Origin: Oscillospiraceae bacterium
Lineage (GTDB): Bacteria > Bacillota > Clostridia > Oscillospirales > Oscillospiraceae
Direction of reading: 5' to 3'
NCBI GenBank assembly: GCA_017456645.1
Contig: JAFTIZ010000028.1
Span: 1-45,333, forward strand
DNA length: 45,333 bases
Part shown: positions 7,986-41,108 of the stretch, piece by piece
Position numbering within the stretch: position 1 is the stretch's first letter
Layout of the letters: each line of letters begins with the position of its first letter
Position numbers and translations under genes: made by a program
Notes under the pieces: generated by a model
Seen by the model: only the letters and a program-made list of their open reading frames with translations
Told to the model about the DNA's origin: nothing
Databases searched by the model: none

Positions 7986-8068
7986 GCGAGAGTGTTGGAA
8001 TGGTAGACAAGCACGTTTGAGGTGCGTGTGGTTTCGCCGTGTGGGTTCGAGTCCCATCTCTCGCACCA
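7986..8068 (+). tRNA. tRNA-Leu (anticodon GAG)
   Basis: Acceptor GCGAGAG (7986-7992) pairs with CTCTCGC (8058-8064), discriminator A, CCA encoded (8066-8068). The anticodon stem CACGT/GCGTG encloses TTGAGGT, giving anticodon GAG. A long class II variable arm (GTGGTTTCGCCGT) and the T arm TGGGTTCGAGTCCCA confirm tRNA-Leu. It reads CUC/CUU. Confidence 0.96.
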
Positions 8069-8124
8069 AAAAAAGAGGATGCCCTTCGGGCATCCTCTTT
8101 TTTTGGTGCGAGAAGGGACTCGAA
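8046..8124. repeat. Fold-back palindrome of the tRNA-Leu(GAG) tail
   Basis: The tRNA 3' tail (8046-8068) reappears inverted at 8104-8124 after the terminator. TCTCGCACCA matches TGGTGCGAGA and TTCGAGTCCC matches GGGACTCGAA; the inverted copy lacks two bases between the blocks. Together with the terminator stem the arms are 39 and 37 nt. A degraded second terminator plus inverted tail follows at 8251-8294 (CTTCGGGCATCCTCTTTTTTGG, shown here only in part: GGGCATCCTC, then TTGGACTCAA). Confidence 0.85.
8069..8104 (+). terminator. Terminator of tRNA-Leu(GAG)
   Basis: The 16-bp stem AAAAAAGAGGATGCCC (8069-8084) pairs with 8088-8103 across a TTC loop, starting right at the CCA end. It is the centre of a longer palindrome that includes the tRNA tail. 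Confidence 0.92.
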
Positions 8125-8221
8125 AGGCCGTTAAGAAAACATGCCGGTGGCATGTTTTTAGGCCGTGGGAGAGTCCCTCAAATCCAAGACGCATCCCCTA
8201 GGGATGTGGATTGGATTTGAG
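8114..8221 (+). other. Candidate structured element downstream of tRNA-Leu(GAG)
   Basis: On the tRNA strand: GGGACT (8115-8120, the inverted tail) can pair with AGTCCC (8172-8177). GGCC (8126-8129) can pair with GGCC (8161-8164). AAAACATGCC-GGT-GGCATGTTTT forms a hairpin (8136-8158). A 45-nt bulged hairpin follows (8177-8221): 11-bp outer stem CTCAAATCCAA/TTGGATTTGAG, 3x3 internal loop GAC/GGA, 7-bp inner stem GCATCCC/GGGATGT, triloop CTA. The same geometry recurs next to tRNA-Leu(CAG) with different stem sequences. No family name is known to me; whether it is transcribed is unknown. Confidence 0.5.
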
Positions 8222-8304
8222 AATACTCTATTCATTACAATTTAATTACGGGCTCCCTTCGGGCATCCTCTTTTTTGGTATGATTGGACTCAATGAAACA
8301 AAAT

Positions 8305-19369: not shown

Positions 19370-22039
19370 TTAGTTGACAGTCAGGGTTCCTTCTTGATTA
19401 AATTCGTACATACCCTCGGGCAGGAGGCCTTTGTGGTTGGTGATCCAGTAGGAGCCAACCGCCAGCTGGCCGTTGGTACGGACGTAGATGTAACTGCCGT
19501 CCTCCAGCTTCACCAGGCCCAGGCCGTACTGCTTCTTGCCGTCCAGATAGTAGTACAGAACGCCGTTGTCATTTACGATGCCGTCCTCAATATCGGTGAT
19601 GACCAGGTAGCCATCCTCACCGAATTCGTACATACCCTGCTCCATATTGCCGTTGGTGTTGGTGATCCAGTAGTCACCCACCGCCAGCTGGCCGTTGGAG
19701 CGGACGTAGATCCAGCCGCCGCCCAGCTCGATCAGACCGGCATTGTACTGAATCTGGTCGCCCACGAAGTAGTACAGGTTGCTGTCCACCTCGTAGATGC
19801 CGTTCTTGGGAGCATCGGCGATGCCGTTCTCATCGAACAGCACCTTCATGCCCATGGTGAACAGGCCGGAGGTATCGTTGCTGACATTGGTGATGTAGTA
19901 GGCACCGGTAGCAAGCTTACCGCTGGAGCGGACATAGATGTAGCCGGAATAGACATTCTCGGCGCCATCCTCGCTGTGCCAAGTGGTGTTGACGGAGATC
20001 AGACCCTTGTTATAGGCGGTCTTGCCGCTCTCATAGTAGTACCATGCGCCGTTCTCGAAGTAGATGCCGTCCTTGTCGGTAGAAACAGGCTCTACAAGGT
20101 AGCCGTTCTCATCGAAGATGTAGGTGCCGGAAGCGATGCCCAGATCGTTGCCGGGGACATAGTACTCGCTATCGACGATCAGCTCGCCGTTGGAGTTGAC
20201 GTAGATGTAATTCTCGCCAACCTTGGTCAGGCCGTTACCCAGCATCAGGCGATAGTTTTCGTAGTAGCGCAGATCGACAATGCCCTCATTCTTGCACAGC
20301 TTGCCGTCGGCACCGAAGGTGTAAACGCCGCCAGCCACCATGTCGAAATCGGTGGTATTTCTGCTGACATAGGTGTCGCCGGTGGCCATCTTGTTGCCGC
20401 CGTTATCCACATCGCCGATGAAGTAGTAGTAATTCTCACCGGCCTCTACCAGACCCACATGCCAGACGATGCAGCCGTTCACCGCCCAGCGGTTGTCGGA
20501 GGTCAGCCCGTTCAGATCGCTCTGGAACACGCCGTTTTCGTTAAAAACAAACTGAGCAGTATCCTTATCGATGAAGATCTGACCTTTGTTTTCATAGTAG
20601 GCCACGTCCTCAACGTCAGGGCCGTAGGAATAGCCGTTGATGGACTCGGTGGGATAAGGCACTCGGACGATACCGGTAACAGGCTCATTGGTTTCGGGAT
20701 CGTAGTAATACCAGTCACCATCGATCTGCGTCCAGCCGGAACAGACTTTGTAAGAATATAGCAGTTCTCCGTTAAAGTAATCTCGGCAATCAGGGATAGA
20801 AGTCAGTACTTTCTCTCCGGCAACATAAATCTCAAAAGAACATGTATACGCTCTTTGCCCCTCAACCCAGTAGAACTCATATTCCTTATCGAGATCCATG
20901 GGCATGACCCACGCAGAATGATACACACCGTAAGGTAGATCAACGGTAGCGATCAGCACACCGTCTTCATAAACCTTAATGGCATTTCCGTACCAGCCAC
21001 TGGTATAAGTACTATGCAACATAATGAAGATCGAATTTTTATCATGACCGCAGCCGTCGCAGATCAAATCGTCACCATAGTTGTGAGCTTCCGTAACTGT
21101 GTAGCCGCAGCAGGCATAGACATAAGTATGGTCAATACCGTTATCGGTGTAGGAGGGAGCCACATTTTCATGCTTACAAGCCGCCTGGACAGTAACATCA
21201 CCATTGGCACTGACAATAGTAGCACCGTCCGCAGGAACGATCATGCTGCCATTTTGCCAATAGGCCAAACCGTCACTCAAAAGCTCATTCAGGGTTATTC
21301 CACTCACCCTTAGATTGTTTTTAAAAACCACACCCGCTGTAGTCACAACAGCTTGCGATGCAGCATCCTCCATTGTAATGTGATATCCTCCGCTGCCATA
21401 TCCGCCTTGACTAAAAACGCCGCCGTTGATCGTCACGTTGCTGCTATTCTCTGCATTTATACACCAGTAACCTCGGAATTTTCCTCCGTTAATGGTCACA
21501 TCCGCACCATAAGCATGTATAGCATAAAAATCGGCAGAAATATCGGTCGCGCCGTTGACGGTCAGTTGCCCACCAGTAGAAACACTTACACCATTACTAT
21601 CATTATTTTCAACAATTGTAACATCATTAATGGTCACGGAGCCACCATAATTATTTACGGCGTAAGACCAATTCGGAATAATGGTTCCGCCAGTAATGGT
21701 CACGTTTGCCGAACTCACAAATTGAAATACGCTCCACCCTCTTATTCCTCTAACAATACAGCCGTTCAAATCAAGAGTAAACACACCGGAAATATCAGTT
21801 TGCCTAACATCTGAAAGGTCCTTAAGAACCGTCACCACGGCGTTGTCCTCCGCGATGCACTTTTCCACAGCAGCAAAAGCCTCTCCCAACGTCGCGTACT
21901 GGGTCGTCTCTCCGTTAATGGTAACCTCCGCATCATTGGTAACCTCATCCGCCGCATTGGCAGCCTGCGGCATCCACAGCAGCATACAGGCGCATAACGC
22001 AATACCAAAAAGCCAGCCGAATAGTTTCGTTTTCCTCAT
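19370..22039 (-). CDS. Secreted beta-helix protein with C-terminal Tyr/Gly wall-binding-like repeats
   Basis: The 889-aa protein has a signal peptide (1-29, cleavage near ANA-AD). A right-handed beta-helix-like part (~40-290) follows, with repeated VTINGG/VTITGG turns. Next come a HENVAPSYTDNG segment with a CDGCGHD module (~330) and a compact beta domain. From ~440 to the end there are five to six ~75-residue repeats of the type GLVKxxDGxYIYVRxNGQLAVGxYWITN, resembling cell-wall/choline-binding repeat modules. The repeats are also visible as DNA repeats, e.g. 19440-19500 versus 19640-19700. It is probably a surface adhesin or glycan-binding protein. No sortase motif. A terminator-like hairpin lies in its leader. 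Confidence 0.82.
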   Translation of the reverse strand: MRKTKLFGWLFGIALCACMLLWMPQAANAADEVTNDAEVTINGETTQYATLGEAFAAVEKCIAEDNAVVTVLKDLSDVRQTDISGVFTLDLNGCIVRGIRGWSVFQFVSSANVTITGGTIIPNWSYAVNNYGGSVTINDVTIVENNDSNGVSVSTGGQLTVNGATDISADFYAIHAYGADVTINGGKFRGYWCINAENSSNVTINGGVFSQGGYGSGGYHITMEDAASQAVVTTAGVVFKNNLRVSGITLNELLSDGLAYWQNGSMIVPADGATIVSANGDVTVQAACKHENVAPSYTDNGIDHTYVYACCGYTVTEAHNYGDDLICDGCGHDKNSIFIMLHSTYTSGWYGNAIKVYEDGVLIATVDLPYGVYHSAWVMPMDLDKEYEFYWVEGQRAYTCSFEIYVAGEKVLTSIPDCRDYFNGELLYSYKVCSGWTQIDGDWYYYDPETNEPVTGIVRVPYPTESINGYSYGPDVEDVAYYENKGQIFIDKDTAQFVFNENGVFQSDLNGLTSDNRWAVNGCIVWHVGLVEAGENYYYFIGDVDNGGNKMATGDTYVSRNTTDFDMVAGGVYTFGADGKLCKNEGIVDLRYYENYRLMLGNGLTKVGENYIYVNSNGELIVDSEYYVPGNDLGIASGTYIFDENGYLVEPVSTDKDGIYFENGAWYYYESGKTAYNKGLISVNTTWHSEDGAENVYSGYIYVRSSGKLATGAYYITNVSNDTSGLFTMGMKVLFDENGIADAPKNGIYEVDSNLYYFVGDQIQYNAGLIELGGGWIYVRSNGQLAVGDYWITNTNGNMEQGMYEFGEDGYLVITDIEDGIVNDNGVLYYYLDGKKQYGLGLVKLEDGSYIYVRTNGQLAVGSYWITNHKGLLPEGMYEFNQEGTLTVN

Positions 22040-22303: not shown

Positions 22304-22425
22304 CTAAATTTTCATTCACAGTCCTGCGGACTGCGCCTGGAAATAAAGGGACTTTCCCCCGGGCTAAAAAAGTGTCCACCGGACACTTTTTGCCTTGATT
22401 CGCAATGCCGCCCTCTTCAAGTCCC
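22304..22425 (-). other. Second, degraded copy of the tRNA-Leu(CAG) tail element
   Basis: It repeats the 22493-22615 element 189-190 bp further away from the tRNA. The AAAAAAGTGTCC hairpin, the inverted tail (22416-22425) and the inner stem of the 45-nt hairpin (22304-22348) are kept. The outer stem has three mismatches and the adjoining terminator arm (22441-22461) has lost its partner, so this copy is decaying. Confidence 0.6.
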
Positions 22426-22492
22426 ATTCACCAAATGAGAAAAGGACATCCTGACGGATACCTCTAATGTATCGTTCCCTCGTTGATCCAAT

Positions 22493-22615
22493 CTTCATTT
22501 CCATTCACAGTCCTACGGACTGCGCCTGGAAATAAAGGGACTTTCCCCCGGGCTAAAAAAGTGTCCACCGGACACTTTTTTACCTTGCTTCGCAAGGCCG
22601 CCCTCTTCAAGTCCC
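22493..22615 (-). other. Candidate structured element downstream of tRNA-Leu(CAG)
   Basis: On the tRNA strand: GGGACTT (22615-22609, inverted tail) can pair with AAGTCCC (22543-22537). GGGC (22603-22600) can pair with GCCC (22553-22550). Two hairpins follow, CCTTGC-GAA-GCAAGG and AAAAAAGTGTCC-GGT-GGACACTTTTTT. A 45-nt bulged hairpin (22537-22493) ends the element: 11-bp outer stem (one G-U), loops GGC/GAA, 7-bp inner stem GCAGTCC/GGACTGT, triloop GTA. Layout and sizes equal those at tRNA-Leu(GAG). Confidence 0.5.
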
Positions 22616-22686
22616 ATTCACCAAATAAGCAAAGGACATCCTGACGGATGTCCTTTGCTTATTTGGTGGGCGAGGCGGGACTTGAA
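22606..22686. repeat. Fold-back palindrome of the tRNA-Leu(CAG) tail with terminator
   Basis: The terminator arm and CCA end (22619-22641) pair perfectly with 22646-22668 over 23 bp, loop TGAC. Beyond a short divergent stretch, TTCAAGTCCC (22606-22615) mirrors GGGACTTGAA in the tRNA (22677-22686). The stem on the minus strand is the tRNA terminator. Confidence 0.88.
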
Positions 22687-22751
22687 CCCGCACGTCCGCA
22701 GTGAACACTAGAACCTGAATCTAGCGAGTCTACCAATTCCACCACTCGCCC
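22664..22751 (-). tRNA. tRNA-Leu (anticodon CAG)
   Basis: Acceptor GGGCGAG (22751-22745) pairs with CTCGCCC (22674-22668), discriminator A, CCA encoded (22666-22664). The anticodon stem CTAGA/TCTAG holds loop TTCAGGT, anticodon CAG. It has a long variable arm and a T arm CGGGTTCAAGTCCCG. It reads CUG. Confidence 0.96.
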
Positions 22752-40624: not shown

Positions 40625-40668
40625 TCGGCTAAAAAATGAGATGCAATCTACCGGACTGTTGCATTTTG

Positions 40669-41038
40669 ATTGGTTCAAATCCCTCATCTCTATTTCGCCA
40701 AAAAGAGGACACCCCGATGGGGTGTCCGGGAAATAATGGAGGAATTTGATTTAATCATGGTGTTGCCGCCGAAAACGGCGGCAAGCGCCGCTCATCCGCG
40801 CCGCATTTATATTGGTTCAAATCCCTCATCTCTATTTCGCCAAAAAGAGGACACCCCGATGGGGTGTCCGGGAAATGATGGAGGGATTTGATTTAATCAT
40901 GGTGTTGCCGCCGAAAACGGCGGCAAGCGCCGCTCATCCGCGCCGCATTTATATTGGTTCAAATCCCTCATCTCTATTTCGCCAAAAAGAGGACACCCCG
41001 ATGGGGTGTCCTCTTTTTGGCGGAGATGGAGGGATTTG
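40669..41038. repeat. Three-unit 142-bp tandem array built on the tRNA-Ser(CGA) tail
   Basis: Units start at 40669, 40811 and 40953, exactly 142 bp apart; the first two differ at only a few positions and the third merges into the tRNA. Each unit holds an inverted tRNA tail (GGTTCAAATCCCTC on the plus strand), a terminator hairpin (GGACACCCC-GATG-GGGTGTCC), a decayed direct tail (ATGGAGGGATTTGA) and a second hairpin (TTGCCGCCG-AAAA-CGGCGGCAA). Unit 3 plus the tRNA 3' end forms a fold-back palindrome. The short open frames in the array are repeats of the same phase and not genes. Confidence 0.9.
40980..41017 (-). terminator. Terminator of tRNA-Ser(CGA)
   Basis: Minus-strand stem AAAAAGAGGACACCCC with its complement, starting at the CCA end; same hairpin as in the upstream repeat units. 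Confidence 0.9.
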
Positions 41039-41108
41039 AACCCCCGCACGCCTTGCGACGCCTAGCGGATTTCGAATCCGCACCCTTCAGCCACTTGGGT
41101 ACATCTCC
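41018..41108 (-). tRNA. tRNA-Ser (anticodon CGA)
   Basis: Acceptor GGAGATG (41108-41102) pairs with CATCTCC (41028-41022), discriminator G as usual for Ser, CCA encoded. The anticodon stem GCGGA/TCCGC encloses TTCGAAA, anticodon CGA. It has a long variable arm (class II) and T arm GGGGTTCAAATCCCT. It reads UCG. Confidence 0.96.

Follow-up and report, generated by a model that had tools for sequence, protein, structure and literature searches.

The locus considered here raises the question of what kind of structured element lies behind two tRNA-Leu genes of an Oscillospiraceae bacterium, and how it came to be there. The window, by which we mean the entire stretch of 45,333 nt that was analyzed, contains a tRNA-Leu(GAG) gene on the plus strand (7986-8068; ARAGORN) with the T-loop sequence TTCGAG (8046-8051) in its 3' end, which we infer to be the target of the element. 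The gene is followed by a symmetrical terminator hairpin consisting of an A-run, a stem and a T-run, as seen in the sequence (8069-8104, plus), and then by an inverted copy of the 3' end of the tRNA (GGTGCGAGAAGGGACTCGAA; 8105-8124, plus) that ends at T54 of the T-loop. Terminator, tRNA tail and the inverted copy of the tail together form a perfect inverted repeat of 26 nt (8059-8084/8088-8113). Further along the same strand are a type A core without the H1 hairpin, comprising a GGCC/GGCC helix and an A/T-flanked hairpin with a GGT loop (8125-8170), a direct T-arm copy, GAGTCCC, the pairing partner of the inverted tail (8171-8177), and a bulged hairpin with locus-specific arms (8178-8220). A covariance model of the family matches this copy at 8115-8224 with 92.3 bits, and by eye the remnant of a second unit (half a terminator and an eroded inverted tail) lies behind it (8250-8297, plus).

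A second type A copy (22494-22622, minus; 100.4 bits) stands behind the tRNA-Leu(CAG) gene (22664-22751, minus; ARAGORN), with its inverted tail at 22622-22606, a core extending to about 22544 that holds both H1 (CCTTGC GAA GCAAGG) and H2, the sequence AAGTCCC at 22543-22537 and the hairpin at 22536-22494, all on the minus strand. In tandem with it is a third type A copy (22306-22461, minus; 84.2 bits), the match being 95% identical and the terminator partly lost. Behind the tRNA-Ser(CGA) gene (41018-41108, minus; ARAGORN), repeat analysis (D1, D2) revealed an array of type B with a period of 142 (40661-41017, minus), the units of which consist, in order, of a terminator, an inverted tRNA-Ser tail, a B core and a displaced tRNA-Ser 3' fragment; by eye, 15 nt of the displaced fragment are identical in the first unit. 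The outer layout of this array follows the same logic as that of the type A copies. By eye, the tRNA-Arg(CCT) gene of the window has a plain terminator, and three more copies are present elsewhere in the same genome (1.15 Mb, 53% complete), behind tRNA-Val(GAC), tRNA-Val(CAC) and tRNA-His. The element is a tightly folded sequence of approximately 100 to 200 bases, without genes, found behind many tRNA genes of these gut bacteria.

Both tRNA-Leu copies exist as a sequence-only reading of this DNA had described them, with the same order of parts, and RNA folding recovers the expected stems in both (z = -9.2 and -8.7, with 0/200 shuffles as stable); the tandem third copy folds more weakly (z = -4.0). 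That reading had the inverted tRNA tail pairing with AGTCCC or AAGTCCC, which we confirm, the tail being a copy of the T-arm of the tRNA directly upstream. The hairpin geometry that it gave, 11-3-7-3-7-3-11, fits the aligned family, although RNA folding closes one extra pair (10-2-8-3-8-2-10). Two features go beyond that account: arms that copy the adjacent tRNA and, decisively, an insertion at the T-loop in which the tRNA ends are regenerated and displaced.

The further copies that were to be looked for with a covariance model were found, both in the same genome and in relatives. The model was built from 18 sequences from relatives, picked for equal H1 length, and rare forms may be missed because the seeds were so chosen; large-scale searches were run with stricter filters. 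Within the genus the element occurs in 93 of 136 genomes, with up to 15 copies, and in 21/40 of those of high quality. At the level of the family 11 of the 300 genomes drawn were positive, counting the genome under study and one other of the same genus; in the order the figure was 10/325, again with this genome counted, and in the phylum 1/348, which is this genome itself. An exact pattern run against GTDB r220 returned 59 stretches, from MAGs labeled Oscillospiraceae, Clostridia, Clostridiales, Eubacteriales, Bacillota or uncultured bacterium, and from Pseudoflavonifractor sp. MSJ-30, the sole record without a MAG label. Two model searches of the collected loci gave 119 and 105 matches, amounting to 165 distinct ones, of which 93 have the 3' end of a same-strand tRNA no more than 200 nt upstream (89 of them at 42-65 nt). 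Eighteen types of tRNA carry the element. The other 72 distinct matches, for which no tRNA was called within 200 nt, appear to comprise tandem copies, contig ends, tmRNA-like tails (recognized by eye; the gene at L339 was called as a tmRNA) and some orphans.

With the queries used, type A gave no matches in phage records, plasmids or IMG/VR, and IMG/VR yielded two type B matches that by eye look like host DNA beside a prophage. On one IMG/VR contig (L334, approximately 860-920) the 3' part of a tRNA is followed by a type B unit, apparently in host DNA at a prophage edge, again by eye. No longer, gene-bearing version was noticed by eye among the exact half-site matches in the genus; the first half-site pattern was weakly specific, a reversed control matching in many genomes too. 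An element of this kind is not named in the open-paper literature searched, and the family appears to represent a type of very small mobile element that has not been described.

The statement of the sequence-only reading that the stems vary while pairing is kept was borne out across the family. In 105 distinct rows, 96.8% of cells pair and 38 of the 46 pairs are changed on both sides, the alignment having been fitted to the model and so leaning toward structure. The doubly changed cells number 950 as compared to 249 in shuffles (0/500 shuffles reach the observed value), the covariation score is 0.489 versus 0.124 for shuffled and at most 0.070 for slid partners, and pairing falls to 36-48% once partners are slid. 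The bias of G-U pairs toward the tRNA strand likewise holds across the family: G-T outnumbers A-C by 143 to 52 with two G-T rich pairs excluded, and at the base of the inner stem of the bulged hairpin G-T occurs in 119/164 distinct copies, with a gap in 25. Since G-T exceeds A-C, folding seems to take place on the tRNA-coding strand, be it RNA or DNA, although the DNA folding energies of the two strands are alike for the two window copies. The earlier suggestion that the bias points to RNA holds as far as the strand is concerned, but the bias does not single out RNA, because a single DNA strand would give the same one. Rfam gave no match to type A at the gathering score across the whole window, and in searches of three loci (L004, L139 and L152) down to E 5 all matches, tRNA aside, were below the gathering score.

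The arms of the family copy the adjacent tRNA. In the basal stem, the T-loop region of the tRNA directly upstream is present twice, once as its complement and once in direct orientation; the inverted tail extends to T54 of the T-loop, and base 57 is the first of the right arm. For instance, elements behind tRNAs with TTCGAGTCC have the arms GGACTCGAA and GAGTCC, those behind tRNAs with TTCGAATCC have GGATTCGAA and GAATCC, and the same correspondence was found for GATTCC, GACTCC, AAGTCC and AAATCC. Among 89 first copies from the 165 distinct matches, the left arm equals that of the element's own tRNA in 83 over eight bases and in 81 over nine, whereas 1000 shuffles of the labels gave 35 on average and never more than 49. 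The right arm does so in 73/73 arms that could be cut out (16 were not separable), and the own six right-arm bases lie within 84/89 elements and are absent from L126, L196, L112 and L032. The acceptor part of the inverted tail behaves differently from the T-arm part: it is exact or nearly exact in 22/89 and eroded in 67/89, 61 of which nevertheless keep all nine bases of the T-arm exactly. When acceptor parts were compared, the own tRNA was strictly best in 29/89 and tied best in 10/89. Where both parts of the inverted tail are intact, 12/21 tails have 1-4 extra nucleotides between acceptor and T-arm parts (exactly three in 8 of the 12), and these bear a resemblance to extrahelical bases.

How the element is placed at its target is seen most directly at tRNA-Val(GAC). 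At empty loci (L330, which corresponds to the place of L305, and L307, L328 and L311) a terminator, ATACATGAAAAATCCGAAC or a close variant, directly follows the tRNA. At the filled loci L299, L301, L303 and L316, inserts of 156, 152, 158 and 151 bp, respectively, precede the same terminator; each consists of its own terminator, an inverted tail, a type B core and a second copy of the tRNA 3' end, and the terminator inside the insert is unlike the displaced original. The inserts sit between 22-bp direct repeats (TCGAGTCCTATATCGTCCACCA) that start in the T-loop, with one mismatch near the end of the right copy in L301.

A census of 203 tRNA flanks, covering inserts of up to approximately 190 nt, with longer ones outside its scope, found 166 T-arm-bracketed inserts with several core types in 123 flanks; its class labels are rough because variant A cores land under "other". 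In 27 inserts, five of them from other genera, at least 13 nt of the displaced own tail are present on the right, at tRNAs for Leu, Val, Arg, Tyr, Gln, Ser and Pro. Among loci from other genera or families, 18/24 could be parsed and in seven the tail continues for at least 12 nt, as it does by eye in L342; at two loci of the order, a tmRNA (L339) and a tRNA-Glu (L340), a displaced end of 20 nt comes after the core. Inserts labeled A in the census have a displaced tail of at least 15 nt in 1/113 cases. The bulged hairpin usually occupies the place of the displaced tail in type A of the genus, and for that reason insertion of type A at the T-loop rests on its relatives and on the arms. Clean T-loop insertion with direct repeats was thus seen at one locus family, and elsewhere the displaced fragment alone.

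Several comparisons suggest that cores move between tRNA genes. In the genome with 11 copies (G066), the Pro, Leu and Ser tRNAs have cores that share 98-100% identity, and the basal and hairpin arms differ. For the 108 of 118 copies whose cores were separable by regular expression, core identity of at least 0.9 was found in 25% of 104 pairs from the same genome at different tRNAs, in 11% of 448 pairs at the same tRNA across genomes and in 2% of 5202 pairs differing in both, a moderate excess of near-identical cores between the tRNAs of one genome over all pairs. Between tRNA-Leu(GAG) and rsmE (named by eye), nothing is present in G098, whereas G110, G081 and G096 have B or A units. G017 and G069 share the inverted tail and hairpin at tRNA-Leu(GAG), but not H1 and H2. 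A survey of this tRNA covered 71 loci, including L203, from 114 genomes with a match; symmetrical A/T terminators occur at 27/34 filled loci as compared to 17/37 others (Fisher p = 0.0066, with L262, L263 and L271 reassigned by eye). We also note a type C palindrome of approximately 62 nt (GGTTGCCGGTGGCAACC) inside an A and a B core of one genome, G018 (L050, near 1180 and 14600; L139), and a further core type, AGGCGGC...CAACCGCCGTGG, within the same T-arm brackets in other genera (L154, L162, L338 and L343).

Taken together, the comparisons among relatives lead us to think it likely that we are dealing with mobile cassettes of very small size, devoid of coding sequence, whose insertion site is the T-loop of tRNA and tmRNA genes. 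Each cassette would bring a 3' end to replace that of the tRNA, along with a symmetrical terminator, the same 3' end in inverted orientation and a structured hairpin core. On insertion the replacement end would restore the tRNA, and the original 3' fragment and terminator would be displaced to the far side; arrays might then arise by tandem insertion or by recombination between tail copies. Mobilization would presumably occur in trans, by a putative recombinase recognizing a folded single strand, and we tentatively favor recombination of the folded single strand. When one strand folds, the inverted tail would render the T-loop half-site double-stranded, in the manner of a folded attC, and the inner arms would keep or regain the local tRNA sequence after a move. 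The inverted tail, which would be useless to an ordinary island, makes sense if one strand must fold. A more specific proposal, offered tentatively, has gene-free cassettes travel as folded single-stranded DNA and enter the T-loop through a tRNA-specific tyrosine recombinase, with each move overwriting the arms by the sequence of the new target. Points against the cassette model are the lack of Y1 and IVP matches in some copy-rich genomes, the near absence of displaced tails behind type A in the census, the 72 matches without a called tRNA and the four elements without the own right-arm bases. Moreover, a T-loop integrase that switched to another tRNA would bring along a foreign acceptor strand, and both strands of the two window copies fold alike as DNA (z = -8.2 and -7.4; -8.3 and -8.8). 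The existence of the cassette family is well supported, and by its sequence comparisons it is apparently mobile.

Alternatively, the elements might encode a structured non-coding RNA that serves the host and is transcribed by read-through from the tRNA promoter, with the antisense T-arm copy serving as a switch in tRNA maturation; in that version the upstream tRNA and the downstream T-arm copy would be alternative pairing partners of the antisense T-arm. Strong covariation, the G-U bias on the tRNA strand and the retention of T-loop identity despite a decayed acceptor part all agree with this, and in folding of a read-through RNA that includes the tRNA tail, the tail is captured by the inverted tail (z = -12.5). 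We nonetheless regard a host RNA as unlikely, given that a terminator separates the tRNA from the element, that presence varies by species and by tRNA (the 21/40 high-quality genomes of the genus), and that the insertion signature, the tandem arrays and the different cores in the same brackets stand against it; a function of the element as RNA is possible. Another explanation dispenses with a dedicated enzyme. Template switching reportedly both generates and repairs hairpins (PMC8794818), and switching during replication at the terminator hairpin might copy the tRNA tail backwards, with a switch back via T-arm homology adding cores and the same mutational process keeping the arms paired. It would account for locus-specific inverted tails, for symmetrical A/T terminators and for hairpin arms that differ beside identical cores, and may well rewrite arms. 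The terminator of the tRNA-Val insert, however, differs from the displaced original, and the snap-back was therefore not on the resident terminator; this foreign terminator argues against template switching as the sole process, as do the recurrence of one T-loop junction across several core types and the strand bias of pairs. As a complete explanation we hold it to be possible, if doubtful.

The insertion signature is identical to that of full-size tRNA islands or prophages, and the elements might be what is left of these after loss of the interior. One locus (L158) has a 59-aa integrase-like frame adjoining a displaced tRNA-Val tail (513-689; by eye like the C-terminus of a tyrosine integrase, no Pfam match). 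However, the same small, covarying cores are found at many tRNAs and in many genomes, and random decay would not keep them, which makes this origin improbable. We give still less credence to a REP-type origin, with a TnpA-REP (RAYT) transposase moving the palindromes. The sequence-only reading had noted a likeness to such palindromes and had seen no TnpA-REP gene; the bulged hairpins fit the likeness, and a RAYT-like Y1 gene is in fact present in the same genome (by eye; contig C17, L287 767-1249; PF01797 at E 3.7e-4, below the cut-off). This gene lies approximately 3.5 kb from the tRNA-His copy. The likeness nonetheless fails at the loci tested: palindromes stand beside RAYT-like genes in 2/4 loci scanned (in the relatives L288 and L289; GTAGGGAACG...CGTTCCCTAC) and are unlike the element, and the scan found none at the other two, that of the genome under study among them. 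Around Y1 genes, the model matched once, and weakly, in 20 loci (E 0.011, 20.3 bits), and copy-rich genomes such as G066 with its 11 copies and G011 with eight have no Y1 match at E 0.001.

As candidates for the mover, Y1 or IVP were rejected, as neither tracks the element in the rows compared. Pfam Y1 matches occur in 76/136 genomes of the genus and IVP in 94/136, with IVP absent from G070, G000 and G033. Group II introns and retroelements were considered as well, as these can insert behind terminators.

Among known systems, tRNA islands (Islander, PMC4383910) and integrons (PMC3053210) are the first to compare. For tRNA islands, a regenerated gene and a displaced fragment mark the ends, and such marks are present at the empty and filled tRNA-Val(GAC) loci, in the 27 displaced-tail inserts and at the tmRNA L339. 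The element shares with islands and ICEs that use tyrosine integrases a tRNA or tmRNA target, a regenerated gene, a displaced 3' fragment and direct repeats. Unlike them, it measures 151-158 bp (at the one locus measured), has a structured core, its own terminator and an inverted tail, and occurs with the same core at many tRNAs; there is no integrase gene in the measured inserts of 151-158 bp. In integrons, a folded attC gives a double-stranded half-site to the integrase, and the core site has the motif GTTRRRY. This motif is present in 3/164 distinct copies on the plus and three on the minus strand, as compared to approximately 21 and 11 in mononucleotide shuffles. Arrays, palindromes with variable stems and a kept geometry, extra unpaired bases and a one-strand pair bias are shared with attC cassettes; the element differs in that GTTRRRY is not enriched, in having no cargo gene and in its target, the tRNA T-loop.

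REP and BIME sequences are, like the element, intergenic imperfect palindromes in many copies, but the element does not flank a RAYT gene at the loci tested, has a different sequence and inserts at the T-loop. MITEs are similarly short and non-coding with inverted repeats, and would likewise need help in trans; here, however, the inverted repeats match the adjacent tRNA, differ from locus to locus and are not the element's own.

If the elements move as folded single-stranded DNA, tRNA genes would be integron-like platforms for hairpin cassettes able to colonize many tRNAs. To our knowledge, no tRNA-targeting mobile element would be smaller; this one has no gene at all and would be the sole one whose ends take on the sequence of the host gene. 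It would also be a caution for covariation-based RNA discovery that strong covariation can arise in apparently mobile DNA. The invasion of tRNA genes by palindromes is directly testable, as one carrier, Pseudoflavonifractor sp. MSJ-30, may be cultured.

Some neighboring features deserve mention in their own right. Behind the tRNA-Leu(GAG) terminator of other genomes (L239, L242, L255 and L221) stand elements of several hairpins, the spacers of which read ATGATAT or AGTTATATT, and in L239 and L255 the hairpins are followed by a small gene that by eye resembles one for a 23S rRNA IVP/four-helix bundle protein; at the place of L255 in G120 there is a PF05635 match. Structured RNA candidates of gut bacteria such as Gut-1 (RF01706) are, like our element, multi-hairpin, but Gut-1 resembles the different, neighboring element at L239, which has a sub-threshold match to it (41 bits, E 2.5e-5), and not type A. 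Within the window, an 889-aa open frame with repeated modules (19370-22039, minus; families D3, D4, D6 and D8) perhaps encodes a repeat-containing surface protein.
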